NCBI RefSeq assembly: GCF_020193575.1
Contig: NZ_JADYVD010000019.1
Location: 62,001-126,000, forward strand
Direction of reading: 5' to 3'
Length of the DNA stretch: 64,000 nt
From: Ensifer sp. IC4062
GTDB taxonomy: Bacteria > Pseudomonadota > Alphaproteobacteria > Rhizobiales > Rhizobiaceae
This document shows, piece after piece, positions 11,993 through 20,096 of the stretch; within the stretch, counting starts at the first letter, position 1; each line of letters starts with the position of its first letter. The translations under genes were made by a program, and so were the position numbers. The notes under the pieces were generated by a model, which did no database searches, was not told the DNA's origin, and saw nothing but the letters and a program-made list of their open reading frames with translations.

Positions 11993-12219
11993 GCTGCCGG
12001 CCGCCGCAATCAGTCGCAAAAATTCGCGGCGCTTTGCGGCCTCCGTATTTTTGCAACCCCACAGAGTGCGGTCATTGAAAGGCACGCTCCATGCGTTAGC
12101 TTTTCAGAGGGCGTTGTCGTCCCAGGGGCGGTAAGCGGCCTCCCGGGTCCGGGCGGCCGCACTTGCCGCAGGATTCGGTCGCACAGCTCGGCACCGCACT
12201 TGAATTCGGGGATCAACTG

Positions 12220-14556
12220 ATGCTCATCATACTAACAGCCATTCTCTTCGCCCTGATCGGTCTTGCGATCGGCGCGGGAGGTATCAGGCTCCTGATGCTC
12301 GACGGCAGTGCCTACTACCTGATCGCGGGCCTCGGCTTCCTGCTGACAGCCCTTCTGCTTTACTACCGTCGCGCCGCCGCGCTTTGGGTCTATGCGCTCG
12401 TCGTCGTGGGCTCGCTCGCCTGGGCGGTCTGGGAGGTCGGCTTCGACTGGTGGCAGCTCGGTCCTCGGGGCGGTGTCATCATCCTGCTCGGGCTGTGGCT
12501 GCTTACACCGTGGATCCGACGCCCCCTCGGCTTCGTCAGCCCCTCCGGGGAGCACTACAGCGCCGCGGCGTGGCCGCTCGCTCTCGCCAGCCTCATTTCG
12601 ATCGGCGTCGCGGCGTTCGCCATGACGCAGGATCCGCACGACATCCGCGGCGAGCTGCCGCGCGGCGCAATCGCGGCTCGGGCCAATCTTGGCGGCAATG
12701 TGCCGCCCGGCGAGTGGCACCAGTACGGCCGCACGCCGTTTGGGCAACGCTACTCGCCCCTCGACCAGATCAATGCGGAAAACGTCGCAGGCCTGAGGGT
12801 CGCCTGGCAATACCAGACGGGTGACGTCAAGCGGCCGGACGATGTCGGCGAGACCACCTATCAGGTGACGCCGCTCAAAGTGAAGGACACGCTCTATCTC
12901 TGCACACCGCACAACTGGGCGATCGCGCTCGACGCCGCGACCGGCCGGGAAAAATGGAAATATGATTCCAACTCCGGCATGAACCCGGACCGCCAGCACC
13001 AGACCTGCCGCGGCGTCACCTATTGGGCCGATCCGGCGGCCACACCGGGCAGCGCCTGTGCCGAGCGCGTCTACCTGCCGACTTCCGATGCGCGCCTGAT
13101 CGCGCTCGACGCCGCAAACGGCGAGGTTTGCACGAGCTTTGCCGACAATGGCGTGCTGCATCTAGAACAGGGCATGCGATACAATCCGGCTGGCTACTAC
13201 TACTCGACATCGCCGCCGGTTGCGGTCGGCGACAAGATCATCATCGGCGGAGCGGTCAACGACAACTATTCGACCATGGAACAGTCGGGTGTGATTCGCG
13301 CCTTCAACGTCAGCACCGGCGCGCTTATCTGGAATTGGGATAGCGGGAATCCTGACGTCACGACACCGCTCGCTCCGGGGCAAACCTACACCACCAATTC
13401 GCCCAACAGCTGGTCAGTCTTCAGCTACGACGAGTCCCTCGGCCTCGTCTACATTCCCATGGGAAATCAAGTGCCGGACCAGCTTGGCATGGGGCGGAGC
13501 GAGCACGTGGAGAAATATTCCTCCTCGATCGTCGCGCTCGACATCAACACCGGTGCCGTGCGGTGGGTACGGCAGACCGTGCATCACGACCTTTGGGACA
13601 TGGACGTACCGGCGCAACCGTCGCTCATCGATATCACGAAGGAGGATGGAACGGTCGTTCCGGCGCTCGTCGGCCCGACCAAGCAGGGCGACCTCTACGT
13701 GCTCGACCGGCGGAGTGGCGAACCGATCATTCCGGTTGAGGAAGTGGCCGCACCCGGCGGCGCCATCGCCGAGGACTTTACAGCGCCGACACAGCCGGTC
13801 TCGGCTCTCACCTTCATGCCGGCGCCACTGCAAGAGCGGGATATGTGGGGCATCTCGATGTTCGACCAGCTCGCTTGCCGCATCGCTTTCAGGTCACTCA
13901 AATACGAGGGCCGCTATACACCGCCTTCACTCGAAGGGACCCTGGTTTATCCCGGCAATTTCGGCACCTTCAACTGGGGCTCGGTGGCGGTCGACCCGGA
14001 GCGGCAGGTGCTATTCGGGATGCCGACCTATCTCGCGTTCACATCCCGGCTGGTTCCGCGCGACCAGATCCCGCCAAAGCAGGCCGGCGAAACGGGTAGC
14101 GAGCAGGGCCTCAATCGCAACGAAGGTGCGCCGTACGGCGTATTCATGGGACCGTTCCTCGGTCCGCTGCAGATCCCCTGCCAGGCACCACCGTGGGGCT
14201 ATGTCGCTGGCGCCGACCTCAGGACCGGCAAGATCGCTTACAGGCACAAGAACGGCACCGTCTACGACATGACGCCGCTGCCGTTGCCCCTCAAAGTGGG
14301 TGTGCCGGGCATCGGCGGACCGATGATCACCAAGGGCGGCGTCGCCTTTCTGGGCGCAGCGGTCGATAACTATTTGAGGGCCTACGACCTCACCACCGGC
14401 TCTCAGCTCTGGGAAGCGCGGCTGCCGGCAGGCGGGCAATCGACTCCGATGACGTACGCGGTTGGCGATAAGCAATATGTGCTGATGGTTGCCGGCGGCC
14501 ACGGTTCGGTCGGCACAAAGCCGGGCGACTACGTCATTGCCTACACCCTTCCCTGA
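12220..14556 (+). CDS. gcd: Membrane-bound PQQ-dependent glucose dehydrogenase
   Basis: This quinoprotein of about 778 residues oxidises aldoses to the lactone in the periplasm and feeds ubiquinone. The first 140 residues contain five hydrophobic membrane helices. The rest is a quinoprotein propeller beginning NVPPGEWHQYGRTPFGQRYSPLDQI and containing the tryptophan-docking repeats and VRQTVHHDLWDMDVPAQPSL, a block with residues that contact PQQ and calcium. Length and architecture equal E. coli Gcd. I chose the ATG at 12220, which puts the first membrane helix at the N terminus; the frame extends 19 codons upstream. Apo-enzyme activity depends on PQQ made elsewhere. Gluconate production can solubilise phosphate. 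Confidence 0.93.
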   Translation: MLIILTAILFALIGLAIGAGGIRLLMLDGSAYYLIAGLGFLLTALLLYYRRAAALWVYALVVVGSLAWAVWEVGFDWWQLGPRGGVIILLGLWLLTPWIRRPLGFVSPSGEHYSAAAWPLALASLISIGVAAFAMTQDPHDIRGELPRGAIAARANLGGNVPPGEWHQYGRTPFGQRYSPLDQINAENVAGLRVAWQYQTGDVKRPDDVGETTYQVTPLKVKDTLYLCTPHNWAIALDAATGREKWKYDSNSGMNPDRQHQTCRGVTYWADPAATPGSACAERVYLPTSDARLIALDAANGEVCTSFADNGVLHLEQGMRYNPAGYYYSTSPPVAVGDKIIIGGAVNDNYSTMEQSGVIRAFNVSTGALIWNWDSGNPDVTTPLAPGQTYTTNSPNSWSVFSYDESLGLVYIPMGNQVPDQLGMGRSEHVEKYSSSIVALDINTGAVRWVRQTVHHDLWDMDVPAQPSLIDITKEDGTVVPALVGPTKQGDLYVLDRRSGEPIIPVEEVAAPGGAIAEDFTAPTQPVSALTFMPAPLQERDMWGISMFDQLACRIAFRSLKYEGRYTPPSLEGTLVYPGNFGTFNWGSVAVDPERQVLFGMPTYLAFTSRLVPRDQIPPKQAGETGSEQGLNRNEGAPYGVFMGPFLGPLQIPCQAPPWGYVAGADLRTGKIAYRHKNGTVYDMTPLPLPLKVGVPGIGGPMITKGGVAFLGAAVDNYLRAYDLTTGSQLWEARLPAGGQSTPMTYAVGDKQYVLMVAGGHGSVGTKPGDYVIAYTLP

Positions 14557-15122: not shown

Positions 15123-16013
15123 TCAAATCATTCCCGCAATGATCTTTCCGACCTCGGCGAAGACGGGATTCAGTTCCTTCACCGGCGCCTTGGCCTCGGC
15201 GATATAGACCGTGATCAGGACGGGCCCGCGGTCCCTCGGCCAAACAACGGCAATATCCGACGCGGCGCCTGTCGCGCTCGTCCCCGTCTTGTCGCCGATG
15301 CGCCAATCCTTCGGCATGCCGGCCCGAAGGCGCGCGTCGCCGGTTTTGTTGGCGACCATCCAGTCGGTGAATTGCATCCGAGAGCTCTCCGAAAGAACCG
15401 GACCGAGCGCCAGATTGCCGAGCGTTTCCAGCATGGCAGCCGGCGTCGTCGTGTCACGCGGGTCCCCTGGCCTCGCTTCGTTAAGCTCTGGCTCGGTGCG
15501 GTCAAGCCGTGTCGTCTGATCGCCAATCGACCGCAGCCATCCCGTCAATCCTTCCGGCCCACCGAAACTTTCGAGCAGCAGGTTGCCCGCGGCGTTATCG
15601 CTGACCGTCACCGCCGCCTCGCAAAGCTCGGCGACCGTCATGCCGTCGCCTCCCGCGTGTTTTTCGGTCACCGGCGAATAGGGAACCAGTGCGTCCTTCC
15701 CGAACTTGATGCGCCGGTCGAGCTTTTCCTCGCCCCGGTCCACACGGGCCAGGACACAGGCCGCGGCCAACGCCTTGAAGGTCGAGCACATGGCAAAGCG
15801 CTCGGTTTCCCGCTGGCCGAAGGAAATATTCGTTTCCGTGTCGAGCACGGCGACGCCGAGGCGACCGCCAGTACGCTTTTCGAGTTCGCCAAGCTGCTTC
15901 GAGACGTCGCCATCCGTACTGGAAACGGCGCGCGCGGTGCCGGGCAGAACGAGTGCCGGATAGAGCATCGCGGAGCCGACGAGCATGGTGCGGCGATTGA
16001 TAAAGAGGGGCAC
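15123..16013 (-). CDS. bla: Class A beta-lactamase with twin-arginine signal
   Basis: The roughly 296-residue serine beta-lactamase carries all class A motifs: S-T-F-K at residues 77-80 (Ambler 70-73), SDN at 138-140, E-x-x-L-N at 174-178 (Ambler Glu166) and KTG at 242-244. The leader contains INRRTMLVGSAML followed by a hydrophobic stretch and an ARA cleavage site, so export is probably by the Tat route to the periplasm. I chose the GTG at 16013 because GGAGGAAGAAC lies directly before it. The frame continues 22 codons to an ATG at 16079, but that would bury the signal. No ampR-like regulator is adjacent. Confidence 0.9.
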   Translation of the reverse strand: MPLFINRRTMLVGSAMLYPALVLPGTARAVSSTDGDVSKQLGELEKRTGGRLGVAVLDTETNISFGQRETERFAMCSTFKALAAACVLARVDRGEEKLDRRIKFGKDALVPYSPVTEKHAGGDGMTVAELCEAAVTVSDNAAGNLLLESFGGPEGLTGWLRSIGDQTTRLDRTEPELNEARPGDPRDTTTPAAMLETLGNLALGPVLSESSRMQFTDWMVANKTGDARLRAGMPKDWRIGDKTGTSATGAASDIAVVWPRDRGPVLITVYIAEAKAPVKELNPVFAEVGKIIAGMI

Positions 16014-16394
16014 GTTCTTCCTCCGTCCTGGGCGTGCGGCCTTTGCCACATCAACCTCTAAATTATTGATAGTGAACATTTATTTATCCGCCGCCGCGAC
16101 AGCGGCAAGCGACGCAAATCGCTAAGCGGCAAATATGGCGGGCTTGTGCTCGCGCGGATCGCGTTCCGAGCCTGGCCCTCTGCTTGCGGGCCGTCGAGTG
16201 AAAATGCTATGGCAAGGCCGTTGAACTTGAAGGACGAGATCCGTGCGCCTCATCCGTTAGCGACGTTGCCTGGCAAGCCGAACCGCCGCTGTAAGCGCTG
16301 TCTTGCGAGCGCTTACTTGCGGCTGCTTTTGCCAGACCGTGACGGATGCACAACAGGGACGCGCGCCCCAGCGGTCGTTTCAAGGATCAAAATC
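16014..16394. other. Divergent intergenic region with a 9-bp dyad
   Basis: The gap between bla and the hydrolase gene holds no credible gene. It contains an inverted repeat, GTAAGCGCT (16291-16299) and AGCGCTTAC (16308-16316), perfect over nine bases with an 8-base centre, about 80 bases before the hydrolase start. It could be an operator or an mRNA leader hairpin. There is also an AT-rich patch next to bla (16050-16095). Confidence 0.45.
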
Positions 16395-17364: not shown

Positions 17365-17778
17365 ATGTATTCGATCGGTGACCTCTCTCGCCGCACCGGC
17401 GTCAAGATCCCGACCATTCGCTATTACGAGCAGATGGGACTGATCGACGCGCCGGAACGGTCGGAAGGCAATCAACGGCGTTATGAAAAACGCGAGCTCG
17501 AACGACTGGCCTTCATCCGTCACGCCCGCGACCTCGGACTCTCGATCGACGCGATCCGCGACCTGCTGGCGCTCAGCGAACATCCGGAACGCCCTTGCGG
17601 CGAGGCGGACCGCATCGCCACCGAACACCTCGCGTCAGTGCGGGAGAGGATCGCCAGGCTGCGAAAGCTGGAAAGCGAACTCGAACGCATCGTCGCCTGC
17701 CATGGCGACCACACGATCGGCGACTGCTACGTCATCCGGGCGCTCGCCGACCACTCGATGTGCGAGAGTGAGCACTGA
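17365..17778 (+). CDS. MerR-family regulator with ZntR-like cysteines
   Basis: The 137-residue regulator has the N-terminal winged helix (YSIGDLSRRTGVKIPTIRYYEQMGLI, residues 2-27) and a dimerisation coiled coil (about 80-110). Cys78 and Cys112-x8-Cys121 match the divalent-metal pattern of ZntR, CadR and PbrR (Cys79, Cys114/115, Cys124) better than the Cys-x7-Cys of copper sensors. An extra Cys133 is near the end. No metal pump is adjacent, so its target may lie elsewhere. An imperfect dyad (TATCTA ... TAGATA, about 17320-17352) precedes the start. Confidence 0.85.
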   Translation: MYSIGDLSRRTGVKIPTIRYYEQMGLIDAPERSEGNQRRYEKRELERLAFIRHARDLGLSIDAIRDLLALSEHPERPCGEADRIATEHLASVRERIARLRKLESELERIVACHGDHTIGDCYVIRALADHSMCESEH

Positions 17779-17804: not shown

Positions 17805-17833
17805 TTGACAAAATCACGGAAATCGCGAATCTA
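17805..17833 (+). promoter_or_regulatory. Promoter of the leader-peptide attenuator
   Basis: A perfect -35 hexamer TTGACA (17805-17810) is followed after 17 bases by a poor -10 (AATCTA, 17828-17833). A start site five to six bases further on would be the A of the leader-peptide ATG at 17839. This would give a leaderless transcript, as described for trpL of Sinorhizobium meliloti. The -10 match is weak, so the exact start needs mapping. Confidence 0.5.
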
Positions 17834-17838
17834 CGCGC

Positions 17839-17889
17839 ATGATCAAGAACGCACCCATCTCCAGCGTGTATTTTTGGCTGTTCCGATAG
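17839..17889 (+). CDS. Candidate leader peptide MIKNAPISSVYFWLFR
   Basis: This 16-codon open frame ends in a run of Tyr-Phe-Trp-Leu-Phe codons before Arg and a TAG stop. It has no Shine-Dalgarno, but it sits exactly where a transcript from the TTGACA promoter would begin, so leaderless translation is plausible. The aromatic run overlaps segment 1 of a three-hairpin attenuator immediately downstream. The natural reading is a sensing peptide for charged tRNA-Tyr, tRNA-Phe or tRNA-Trp. It is shorter than usual gene-prediction limits and is probably unannotated. Confidence 0.6.
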   Translation: MIKNAPISSVYFWLFR

Positions 17890-17941
17890 GAGCGGCCTGC
17901 TGATCGTATTCAACAAGGCCGCCATCAGGCGGCTTTTGTTT
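17877..17941 (+). promoter_or_regulatory. Transcription attenuator ahead of the GNAT/PfpI genes
   Basis: Three mutually exclusive pairings can be drawn. Segment 1 (17877-17884) pairs with segment 2 (17889-17896) over eight pairs including two G-U. GCGGCCT (17892-17898) pairs perfectly with AGGCCGC (17916-17922) as antiterminator 2:3. GCCGCC (17918-17923) pairs with GGCGGC (17928-17933) as terminator 3:4, followed by TTTTGTTTTT. Segment 1 starts in the Trp codon of the leader peptide, so a ribosome stalled on the Tyr-Phe-Trp codons would free segment 2 and favour antitermination. Confidence 0.6.
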
Positions 17942-17942
17942 T
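17915..17942 (+). terminator. Intrinsic terminator (attenuator 3:4 hairpin)
   Basis: A GC-rich stem GCCGCC/GGCGGC with an ATCA loop, extended by AAG/TTT pairs, is followed by TTTTGTTTTT. It stands 125 bases downstream of the merR gene and about 40 bases upstream of the GNAT start codon. It could end both the merR transcript and the short leader RNA. Confidence 0.8.
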
Positions 17943-17981
17943 TCACGGCACCTGATGGCGGCAGAACCACAGGAGCCGAGA

Positions 17982-18485
17982 ATGCTGCAGACCGCCACCC
18001 CTTCCCTTCATCCCTTGCCGTCGGCTCGTCCACCGATGGTGACGATCCGCTGTGCCAAACCGCGCGATCTTCCCGAGCTGCACGAGATGATCGTCGAGCT
18101 CTCCGCGCATCACGGTGACGCCGCACCGCTAACGCCGGAACGGCTTGAACGCGACCTTTTCAGCCGCTCCCCCTGGATCACGGCGCTTGTCGCCGAAGCC
18201 GGCAACCAGTTGATCGGCTACGCCATCCTTGTGCCGACCTATCGGGCAGCCGAAGGCATGCGCGGTATGGAACTGCATCACCTTTTCGTTCGTCCCGGCC
18301 ATCGTGGCACCGGCATCGGCCGGCACCTCGTTGCCAAGGCGCGCGAGCAGGCGCGAATGGCTGGCTGCGAGTATCTTTCCGTCAGCGCCGCCACCGGCAA
18401 TTTCCAGGCGCATCGCTTCTACGAATCCGAACGCTTCGTGCCTCGACCTGTCACCGGCATGCGCTATATGCAGAAACTTGGCTGA
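17982..18485 (+). CDS. GNAT family N-acetyltransferase
   Basis: The roughly 167-residue protein begins with a short variable tail and enters the GNAT fold at MVTIRCAKPRDLPELHEMI. The acetyl-CoA binding motif A is seen in HHLFVRPGHRGTGIGRHLVAKAREQA (R-x-x-G-x-G/A pattern), and motif B ends with FQAHRFYESERFVP. The substrate is unknown. The ATG at 17982 has CAGGAG eight bases upstream. The DJ-1/PfpI gene follows 12 bases after the stop, so the two are cotranscribed. The attenuator upstream suggests expression tied to the charging of aromatic tRNAs, so an amino-acid-like substrate is worth testing. Confidence 0.88.
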   Translation: MLQTATPSLHPLPSARPPMVTIRCAKPRDLPELHEMIVELSAHHGDAAPLTPERLERDLFSRSPWITALVAEAGNQLIGYAILVPTYRAAEGMRGMELHHLFVRPGHRGTGIGRHLVAKAREQARMAGCEYLSVSAATGNFQAHRFYESERFVPRPVTGMRYMQKLG

Positions 18486-18497
18486 ACGGGAGGGCTC

Positions 18498-19076
18498 ATG
18501 CGCCTCGCAATCGTCCTGACTGAAGGTTTTGCCGACTGGGAATGCGCGCTGCTGATGGCCACGGCGCGCACCGAACTTGGGCTTGACGTGCTGATCGCCA
18601 CGCCCGGCGGCACCGTGGTGACGTCGATGGGCGGCCTTCACATCACGCCGCACCTGCCGACGAAAACGCTGGCACCGGCGGAGTTCGACGCGCTTGTGCT
18701 CTGCGGCGGCTCAACCTGGGAAACCGCCGCGGCCCCCAATCTCACTGCTGTTATCCATGCCTTCCATGCAAAGGGCCGCGTCGTCGCAGGGATTTGCGGG
18801 GCGACGCTTGCGCTTGCCGCCAGCGGCATTCTCAACGAAACGGACCACACGGGCAACTCGGCCGAAAGTCTTTCAGCGGTCGCCGGCTATCGCGGTCACC
18901 GGCACTACCGTGACCAACCGCAGGCCCTTCGCAGCGACCGATTGGTGACGGCTGCGGGCACAGCGCCGGTCAGCTTTACGGCCGAGATTTTCCACGCGCT
19001 CGGCCTCGGGTCCTCCGCGCTCGACGACTATCTTTCGCTCTACTCAAAGGAACATGTTGTTCGCGCGGCACGATAG
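18498..19076 (+). CDS. DJ-1/PfpI family protein
   Basis: The 192-residue class I glutamine-amidotransferase-like protein has a conserved Glu near the N terminus (IVLTEGFADWE), the ALVLCGGSTWE segment and the nucleophile elbow VAGICGATLALA, with the reactive cysteine in GICGAT. Family members act as glyoxalases, deglycases, amidohydrolases or regulators, and the sequence alone does not decide. It is the second gene of the attenuator-controlled unit and converges on the cytochrome genes. Confidence 0.88.
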   Translation: MRLAIVLTEGFADWECALLMATARTELGLDVLIATPGGTVVTSMGGLHITPHLPTKTLAPAEFDALVLCGGSTWETAAAPNLTAVIHAFHAKGRVVAGICGATLALAASGILNETDHTGNSAESLSAVAGYRGHRHYRDQPQALRSDRLVTAAGTAPVSFTAEIFHALGLGSSALDDYLSLYSKEHVVRAAR

Positions 19077-19095: not shown

Positions 19096-20010
19096 TCAAA
19101 GCGGCGGGATCGCCTTCAGGTAGGCGGCGATCGCCTCGCGGTCGGAGGGCGAAAGCCGCGCCATGTTTTTCTGTACGTCGACCATCAAACCGCCAACGGT
19201 ATCGAAATCCGGCGTGAACCCGGTCTCCAGATAGGAGGCAATGTCGGATGCACTCCAGTTGCCTACGCTCCTCGAGCCCGGCGTGATGTCTGGGATGCGG
19301 CCTTCGCCCTCGGGGTTCGGCGCGCCGGCCAACCACCTGCCCTGCTCAAATCCGCCGATCGCGTTTCGCGGCGTGTGACACTCGCCGCAATGGCCGGGAC
19401 CTTCAACCAGATACTGTCCGCGGGCGAGCTTCGCATCCGCCGTATTCACCTCGACGCGCGGCTCGTCCGTGAAGAACAAGAGCTTCCAGGCGCCGAGCGC
19501 CAGGCGGATGTTGTAGGGAAACCGCAAGTCATGCGGCGCCGCCACATTGCCGCTCTTCGGCAGCGTCTGCAGATATCCCCAGAGATCATTGATATCCTTC
19601 GCGGTCATGCGTGCGTAGGAACCGTAGGGGAAAGAGGGATAAAGGTGCTCGCCACCTTTCCCGACACCGCGCGTCATGGCGTTGCCGAATTCGGCCAACG
19701 TCCAGTCACCGATGCCGGCGCTTTCATCGGGCGAGATGTTCGGAACATGGAAGGTACCGAAGGGACTTTTCAGTGCCCGGCCGCCGGAAAGCACGAGCCG
19801 CGCGTCATCCTGTGCCCCCGGCGCAGCATGGCAGCTGGCACAGCCGCCTGCCCAGAAGACCTGTTCGCCGTTGGCGAGATCCGGTTCGCCGAGCCCTTGC
19901 CAATGGGCTTCGTCCCACGGCGCAGGTTTCGTCAGCCACCAAAAACCGCCGGCGCCGGCAAGAACCAGCGCGACCAGACCAGACAGCAGTTTCGTTGTTC
20001 GCCGGCCCAT
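19096..20010 (-). CDS. Membrane-anchored dihaem cytochrome c
   Basis: The roughly 304-residue protein has an N-terminal membrane segment (LLSGLVALVLAGAGGFWWL) and two haem c sites, CASCH at about residue 55 and CGECH at about residue 205, each opening a cytochrome c domain. It resembles the electron-transfer cytochrome subunits of periplasmic dehydrogenases (alcohol/gluconate dehydrogenase type), although those usually have three haems. Haems face the periplasm. The start at 20010 follows GGGAGG on the minus strand. It lies downstream of the cytochrome c-prime gene in the same direction (86 bases apart) and is probably cotranscribed. Confidence 0.87.
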   Translation of the reverse strand: MGRRTTKLLSGLVALVLAGAGGFWWLTKPAPWDEAHWQGLGEPDLANGEQVFWAGGCASCHAAPGAQDDARLVLSGGRALKSPFGTFHVPNISPDESAGIGDWTLAEFGNAMTRGVGKGGEHLYPSFPYGSYARMTAKDINDLWGYLQTLPKSGNVAAPHDLRFPYNIRLALGAWKLLFFTDEPRVEVNTADAKLARGQYLVEGPGHCGECHTPRNAIGGFEQGRWLAGAPNPEGEGRIPDITPGSRSVGNWSASDIASYLETGFTPDFDTVGGLMVDVQKNMARLSPSDREAIAAYLKAIPPL

Positions 20011-20096
20011 CGGGCCTCCCTTCATGCTGGGAAGACAAAGCAGGATGCGCCAGCAGTGCCGACGCATCGCAAACGGTCAGAATGAAGGATCGCCTC

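Follow-up and report, generated by a model that had tools for sequence, protein, structure and literature searches.

The acetyltransferase gene at positions 17982–18485 on the forward strand of the window, the whole 64,000-nt stretch of Ensifer sp. IC4062 DNA analyzed here, is preceded by a conserved leader that we hold, with good confidence, to be a ribosome-mediated attenuator. The attenuator would act on a leaderless transcript and respond to how far tRNA-Tyr and tRNA-Phe are charged, tRNA-Trp being the usual third input, and a second layer of control at the Shine-Dalgarno (SD) sequence of the gene is likely. The gene encodes a GNAT-family protein (PF00583, 5.6e-17), and its SD sequence, AGGAG, lies at 17971–17975. 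The leader, its codons, its pairings, and its linkage to the gene were all brought out by the comparison of relatives described below.

The leader follows a promoter on the forward strand (17805–17833) that consists of TTGACA (17805–17810), a 17-nt spacer, and AATCTA (17828–17833). AATCTA ends five bases 5' of an ATG (17839–17841), so that the expected transcription start is the A of this ATG, at 17839. The putative leaderless ORF that begins there (17839–17889, forward strand) encodes MIKNAPISSVYFWLFR followed by a stop codon, and its control codons, TAT TTT TGG (17869–17877), are located immediately 5' of the first hairpin in the window and in the relatives. The TTGACA box and the small frame beginning at the expected start, which the initial annotation had reported, were thus borne out. 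Among the best 80 of 388 GNAT relatives, the leader ATG was located 34–36 nt downstream of the start of TTGAC in 79 loci, with the single exception giving 11, and this spacing places the expected start at the leader ATG, lending comparative support to the proposed leaderless initiation. A sigma-70 scan of the region did not return the leader promoter, whose −10 element breaks the rule of that scan. In the same 80 loci, TAT TTT was kept throughout and was followed by TGG in 61 and by ACG in 19; all 80 leader peptides contained Trp, and the ACG forms listed carry TGG directly 5' of TAT (WYFT). The Phe codon after Tyr was TTT in all 80 loci; in seven genes of the window, this codon accounts for the minority of Phe codons (14 of 68). 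In three leaders outside the 80-locus set (L031, L049, and L061), TAC replaces TAT.

Three core pairings lie on the forward strand behind the control codons. Hairpin 1:2 comprises 9 bp (17876–17884/17889–17897) and showed changes on both sides in seven of its nine pairs; it is slightly longer than the 17877–17884/17889–17896 first given for it. The antiterminator 2:3 (17892–17898/17916–17922) was found exactly as first described, and a helix of 4–9 bp was present at this place in all 87 distinct loci, a count made without a shuffle control. The intrinsic terminator 3:4 with its T-rich tail (17915–17941), recognized from sequence and covariation, was also present, with a stem at about 17915–17923/17928–17936 rather than 17918–17933. 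The GNAT ATG (17982) is located about 45 nt beyond it. These data confirmed that the leader frame and the three pairings observed earlier are real. The 104-nt leader folds with −42.1 kcal/mol versus −26.9 (sd 3.08) for shuffled sequences (z −4.94), and none of 200 shuffles folded as well. In an alignment of 61 leaders, changes on both sides occurred in 12 of 25 pairs versus 7.0 in shuffled alignments, with a covariation score of 0.170 versus 0.103, and none of 500 shuffles reached any of five whole-structure measures; the alignment and the covariance models were fitted to a given structure, and the covariation result therefore leans towards that structure. The mutually exclusive 1:2, 2:3, and 3:4 pairings were conserved in relatives, and a U-tract terminator precedes the gene, as in attenuators of the trp type.

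The distribution of the leader was examined by several searches. A DNA search of 100 genomes found the leader in all 33 genomes of the genus, the genome of the window included, and a clear leader homologue before GNAT in three further genera. A covariance model built from ten sequences and run on 247 Rhizobiaceae genomes gave 57 matches of at least 56 bits, followed by a gap to 38 bits; a match in G123, at 37 bits, is also a leader. An independent protein search of these 247 genomes identified GNAT orthologs (E ≤ 1e-25) in 55 of them, in 23 of 109 genera, and the leader was located directly upstream of all 55, with the GNAT match starting 36–149 nt behind it. Only 3 of the 58 family leaders were not before GNAT, two of them preceding second tyrosyl-tRNA synthetase (TyrRS) genes and one being an orphan site. 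Likewise, the leader was upstream of GNAT in 80 of 80 loci among the best 80 of 388 GNAT relatives, which are labeled Sinorhizobium, Ensifer, Pararhizobium, Rhizobium, Neorhizobium, Agrobacterium, or Ciceribacter, or for some only Rhizobiales bacterium. The initial annotation had staked its reading on conservation of the small frame and the pairings in relatives, and both were conserved, with compensatory changes and with this linkage; the acetyltransferase is, as it had claimed, the main target.

The same data bear on two other explanations of the site. One is that it is an ordinary constitutive terminator joined to a chance frame, which would suit the outcome of a simple terminator scan of the region (chance level, 2 found versus 2.4 expected); this is contradicted by the linkage in 55 of 55 and in the best 80 loci, the near-invariant codons, and the covariation, and its probability is negligible. 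The other is that the terminated leader RNA, the leader peptide, or both are the main product and act in trans, as rnTrpL and peTrpL do in S. meliloti. The proposed leaderless design is as in rnTrpL (PMC7298713 and PMC10117765), and the nucleotide conservation is strong; against this, 57 of the 58 family leaders precede a gene, and the conservation tracks cis pairings that extend to the GNAT SD sequence, so that a product acting mainly in trans appears very unlikely.

Several weaker matches were read and set aside. Seven matches at 30–38 bits besides that in G123 were among the family matches listed; five of these were read (L097, L098, L101, L102, and L103, with L099 and L100 excepted), and none was a leader. 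The match in G045 (L035) resembles the terminator only, lacks such a frame, and was dropped, and searches of the order and class also returned rows that proved to be ordinary terminators with no comparable frame (L140, L143–L145, L147, L149–L154, L156–L158, L172, L173, L175–L178, and L260). With so many ordinary terminators rejected, single matches near E 1e-5 are often false. A search of the leader against Rfam 15, its amino-acid leader families included, gave no match at gathering score and two chance-level matches (E 1.1 and 4.8), and the only Rfam match in the window was a tRNA.

To compare the codons of related leaders, 347 genomes of the order were searched with models R2 and R3, and 337 genomes of the class with R3 only. 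The related leaders were picked by reading, and their downstream genes were identified by Pfam or NCBIfam, or by sequence for L069, L034, and L136; the class counts leave out the ordinary-terminator rows and three matches without a locus in G604, G085, and G409. Leaders before prephenate dehydrogenase carried tandem Tyr codons (YY) in all eight loci and Trp in none. Those before TyrRS (11 loci, nine distinct peptides, with the truncated copy L034 counted in) had YY in ten loci and likewise no Trp. The four leaders before genes of isochorismatase-domain proteins carried FYW, or YW plus F; these F, Y, and W codon leaders (L161, L163, L164, and L165) come from two other families of the order. Trp was present in 47 of the 48 distinct GNAT leader peptides (62 loci), with L092 as the single exception, and in none of the 17 distinct prephenate dehydrogenase and TyrRS peptides, a contrast with a Fisher p of 1e-14 when relatedness is ignored. 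Tyr occurred in every distinct peptide counted in all four classes. With Tyr common to all classes and Trp confined to the GNAT side of this contrast, the sequences suggest that Tyr is the common input, joined in the GNAT leaders by Phe and, in nearly every case, by Trp. The controlled gene belongs to the metabolism of the encoded amino acid for the prephenate dehydrogenase and TyrRS relatives, which is not apparent for GNAT.

A WYF leader was also seen in all four loci of a second GNAT group, 27–33% identical to the window GNAT, in other families of the class (L168–L171), which suggests that the link between leader and GNAT is old or arose repeatedly.

The comparison supports both a trp-type attenuator, with related tandem-Tyr leaders preceding prephenate dehydrogenase and TyrRS, and the proposed sensing of Tyr, Phe, and Trp charging, with adjacent Tyr and Phe codons plus Trp in all of the best 80 of 388 loci. 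It may be asked whether Tyr alone is sensed, that is, whether GNAT captured a leader of the tandem-Tyr type in which Phe and Trp are kept for hairpin 1 or for codon context. The presence of Tyr in every distinct peptide of the four classes, the tandem Tyr before prephenate dehydrogenase and most TyrRS genes, and the overlap of the W, L, and F codons with hairpin 1 in the window would all agree with this. However, Trp persists beside Tyr-Phe, after it in some loci and before it in others (YFW in 61 and WYFT in 19 of the best 80 of 388), the Trp codon of the WYFT form is located outside hairpin 1, and none of the 17 distinct prephenate dehydrogenase and TyrRS peptides carries Trp. We therefore regard a Tyr-only sensor as unlikely. 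An even less probable reading, to which we give very little weight, is a drug-inducible leader of the erm or cat kind, in which ribosome stalling at a specific peptide, brought about by an antibiotic, would switch on a resistance acetyltransferase. GNAT folds do include drug acetyltransferases (NCBIfam matches were weak and far below cut-off), and the C-terminus of the leader peptide is conserved in Rhizobiaceae; however, what is conserved is aromatic content rather than an arrest sequence (YFWLFR, WYFTLLP, YYATSP, KFYWRFL, and others), and leaders of the same build are found before genes for tyrosine biosynthesis and TyrRS.

The TyrRS genes behind leaders were considered separately. G224 and G285 (L069 and L070) each have two TyrRS genes, one of them behind a tandem-Tyr leader; the other TyrRS is housekeeping-like in both genomes and 55–56% identical to the L070 protein. 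In G020 a full TyrRS gene is located elsewhere, and only a 98-residue matching stretch lies behind the leader (L034), while G142 has one full TyrRS gene and an orphan leader (L074). The housekeeping TyrRS was rejected as the home of the leader, as no match, even at E 10, was found in 30 tyrS loci scanned of the 100 found in 101 genomes of the family.

Beyond the initial account, we observed a paired 5' AUG, a post-terminator segment, and an alternative pairing of this segment over the GNAT ribosome-binding site. By folding and covariation, a 5' closing helix (17839–17907, forward strand) pairs AUGAUCA (17839–17845) with UGAUCGU (17901–17907), so that in the window fold the AUG, within the first seven bases, pairs with the stretch behind segment 2. 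A helix of at least six pairs was present in 88 of the 116 loci examined (out of 121, five being without a recognized terminator), with p ≤ 0.05 against shuffles in only 55 of the 116. The distant members L168 and L169 retain the closing helix with other letters.

The post-terminator segment, segment 5, takes part in two further helices on the forward strand. In helix 3:5 (17918–17962), found by comparison, GCCGCCATCAGG (17918–17929) pairs with CCTGATGGCGGC (17951–17962) over 12 bp, and p ≤ 0.05 against shuffles was reached in 90 of the 116 loci. In hairpin 5:6 (17946–17978), seen by covariation, CGGCACCT (17946–17953) pairs over the GNAT SD region AGGAGCCG (17971–17978). Both were evaluated on 65 sequences out of the 79 left from 87 distinct loci after omission of eight that aligned badly (L058, L063, L085, L086, L088, L089, L094, and L095), an omission that favors both helices: L085, L088, and L095 have no significant 3:5, and the SD sequence is poorly paired in L085 and L095. 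In this set, 94.8% of the 3:5 cells were paired versus at most 53.4% when the segments were slid, and changes on both sides were present in 26 cells versus 8.5 in shuffles; the tallies of changed pairs and pair types were near the shuffle level, with 53 and 146 of the 500 shuffles doing as well. For 5:6, 76.5% of cells were paired versus at most 51.1% when slid, changes on both sides numbered 50 versus 26.2, and the covariation score was 0.223 versus 0.113 in shuffles, with changed pairs and pair types again near the shuffle level (reached by 47 and 309 of 500). When the post-terminator stretch of the 87 loci was folded alone, the mean SD pairing probability was 0.73 versus 0.52 for shuffles, with p ≤ 0.05 in only 20 loci and p ≤ 0.25 in 73. 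In modeled folds of the same loci, mean SD pairing was 0.71 with 3:4 forced and 0.56 with 2:3 forced; forcing 2:3 instead of 3:4 lowered SD pairing by more than 0.2 in 30 loci and raised it as much in three. In the window itself SD pairing rises from 0.80 to 0.96 with 2:3 forced, and segment 4 covers the SD sequence in the modeled fold. These shifts are modest. The data thus support helices 3:5 and 5:6, while the modeled coupling of termination to SD exposure is supported only partly and fails for the window itself. Taken together, the sequences suggest that the post-terminator segment pairs with either the 5' arm of the terminator or the GNAT ribosome-binding site and so may form a translational layer.

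From these comparisons we infer how ribosome stalling, readthrough, and an SD switch would operate in the preferred model. When aromatic tRNAs are charged, the ribosome would reach the stop codon of the leader, terminator 3:4 would form, and an RNA of about 100 nt would be released. In a shortage of charged aromatic tRNAs, it would stall on the Tyr-Phe-Trp codons (17869–17877) and mask segment 1, whereupon 2:3 would form and RNA polymerase would continue into GNAT. If the leader is not translated, 1:2 would form with the 5' AUG paired, and transcription would terminate. In the likely second layer, segment 5 would either cover the GNAT ribosome-binding site (5:6, off), giving poor translation of leaky transcripts, or pair with the 5' arm and loop of the terminator (3:5), leaving the SD sequence free.

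The function of the GNAT protein was approached through its closest relatives. A profile search placed SSAT2/thialysine and diamine N-acetyltransferases among its closest solved relatives (2bei, 1.6e-13), and the fold list for its AlphaFold model was headed by 2fe7 and SSAT structures at 25–30% identity, both in agreement with a GNAT of the SSAT/thialysine type, although at a pLDDT of 78.6 the fold ranks do not fix the substrate. A more distant relative is PA4866, whose deposition names it a putative phosphinothricin N-acetyltransferase. Because an aromatic-consuming enzyme made during aromatic shortage would be odd, our preferred but unproven guess is that the protein detoxifies an inhibitor that is an amine or resembles an amino acid; most likely the enzyme would act on a small compound of this kind that coincides with failing aromatic supply or charging. 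A more far-reaching scheme, which we offer as a tentative possibility, is a six-segment dual switch in which the three aromatic aminoacyl-tRNAs report failure of the shikimate pathway or poisoned aromatic synthetases, shared segments open both transcription and translation of GNAT, the GNAT enzyme inactivates the inhibitor, and the extra TyrRS present in some Ensifer-group strains serves as a second arm of the response.

The gene neighborhood of GNAT is variable. A DJ-1/PfpI-family gene (18498–19076, forward strand; PF01965, 9.1e-25) follows GNAT as an optional second gene, and a MerR-family regulator gene (17365–17778, forward strand), nearest to CadR/CueR models and below all NCBIfam cut-offs, is a frequent upstream neighbor. 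By tblastn in the flanks of the 55 loci, some of them short, a same-strand PfpI relative was found in 28 and a MerR relative in 29, with both in 15 and neither in 13; in S. meliloti Ak57, MerR and GNAT are adjacent, and no PfpI is annotated after GNAT. The control of the DJ-1/PfpI gene that had been proposed therefore looks incidental. Further out, the window carries a class A beta-lactamase gene (15123–16079, reverse strand; NF033103 above cut-off, 337 bits), which is also annotated beside MerR-GNAT in Ak57. A long ORF (12163–14556, forward strand) has at its Ak57 counterpart position an annotated membrane-bound PQQ-dependent dehydrogenase of the glucose/quinate/shikimate family. A cytochrome c gene (19096–20067, reverse strand; PF00034) is convergent with the GNAT-PfpI unit, with cytochrome c annotated there in Ak57 too.

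The classical place of an aromatic attenuator is before biosynthesis genes, and a small acetyltransferase is an unexpected target for one, here in bacteria of soil and plant nodules. Within Alphaproteobacteria, members of a single leader family stand before genes for prephenate dehydrogenase, TyrRS, an isochorismatase-domain protein, and GNATs of two groups, and the leader codons change with the target (YY versus Y, F, and W), so that leader codons hint at what an uncharacterized enzyme responds to. In the legume rhizosphere, the acetyltransferase may protect against naturally occurring inhibitors of aromatic metabolism. Two features lend themselves to direct tests: the apparent translational layer, for which an arm of the terminator itself is reused, and the pairing of the start codon in a putatively leaderless RNA. 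A literature search, by record listing, turned up no description of this leader in front of GNAT, nor of any rhizobial leader with Tyr/Phe/Trp codons, and the words acetyltransferase and GNAT were absent from the main text of PMC10117765, on rnTrpL/peTrpL.

Among known systems, the B. subtilis trp leader, which is controlled by TRAP, has an SD-blocking hairpin that provides a backup translational block on readthrough transcripts. Its sensor is a protein, whereas a ribosome is the proposed sensor of the GNAT leader, where the coupling is only modeled. The S. meliloti trpL (rnTrpL) leader shares with the GNAT leader a small ORF with control codons, mutually exclusive hairpins, and a T-tailed terminator, and its RNA begins with ATG (PMC7298713 and PMC10117765), a leaderless start that is also expected for the GNAT leader from its promoter spacing. 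A pattern search for the trpL start in the genome of the window gave no match. The two leaders differ in that trpL has consecutive Trp codons before trpE, whereas the GNAT leader has one Trp codon together with Tyr and Phe and GNAT downstream, and in that the latter, unlike trpL, adds the downstream 3:5 helix and the SD hairpin. For the TyrRS branch of the family, B. subtilis tyrZ is a second TyrRS gene under a T box (Williams-Wagner 2015; PMC9437257, on duplicated synthetases), that is, a spare TyrRS behind an RNA that responds to Tyr-tRNA, to be compared with the second TyrRS genes of G224 and G285. The T box of tyrZ would have its counterpart there in a leader peptide read by the ribosome.
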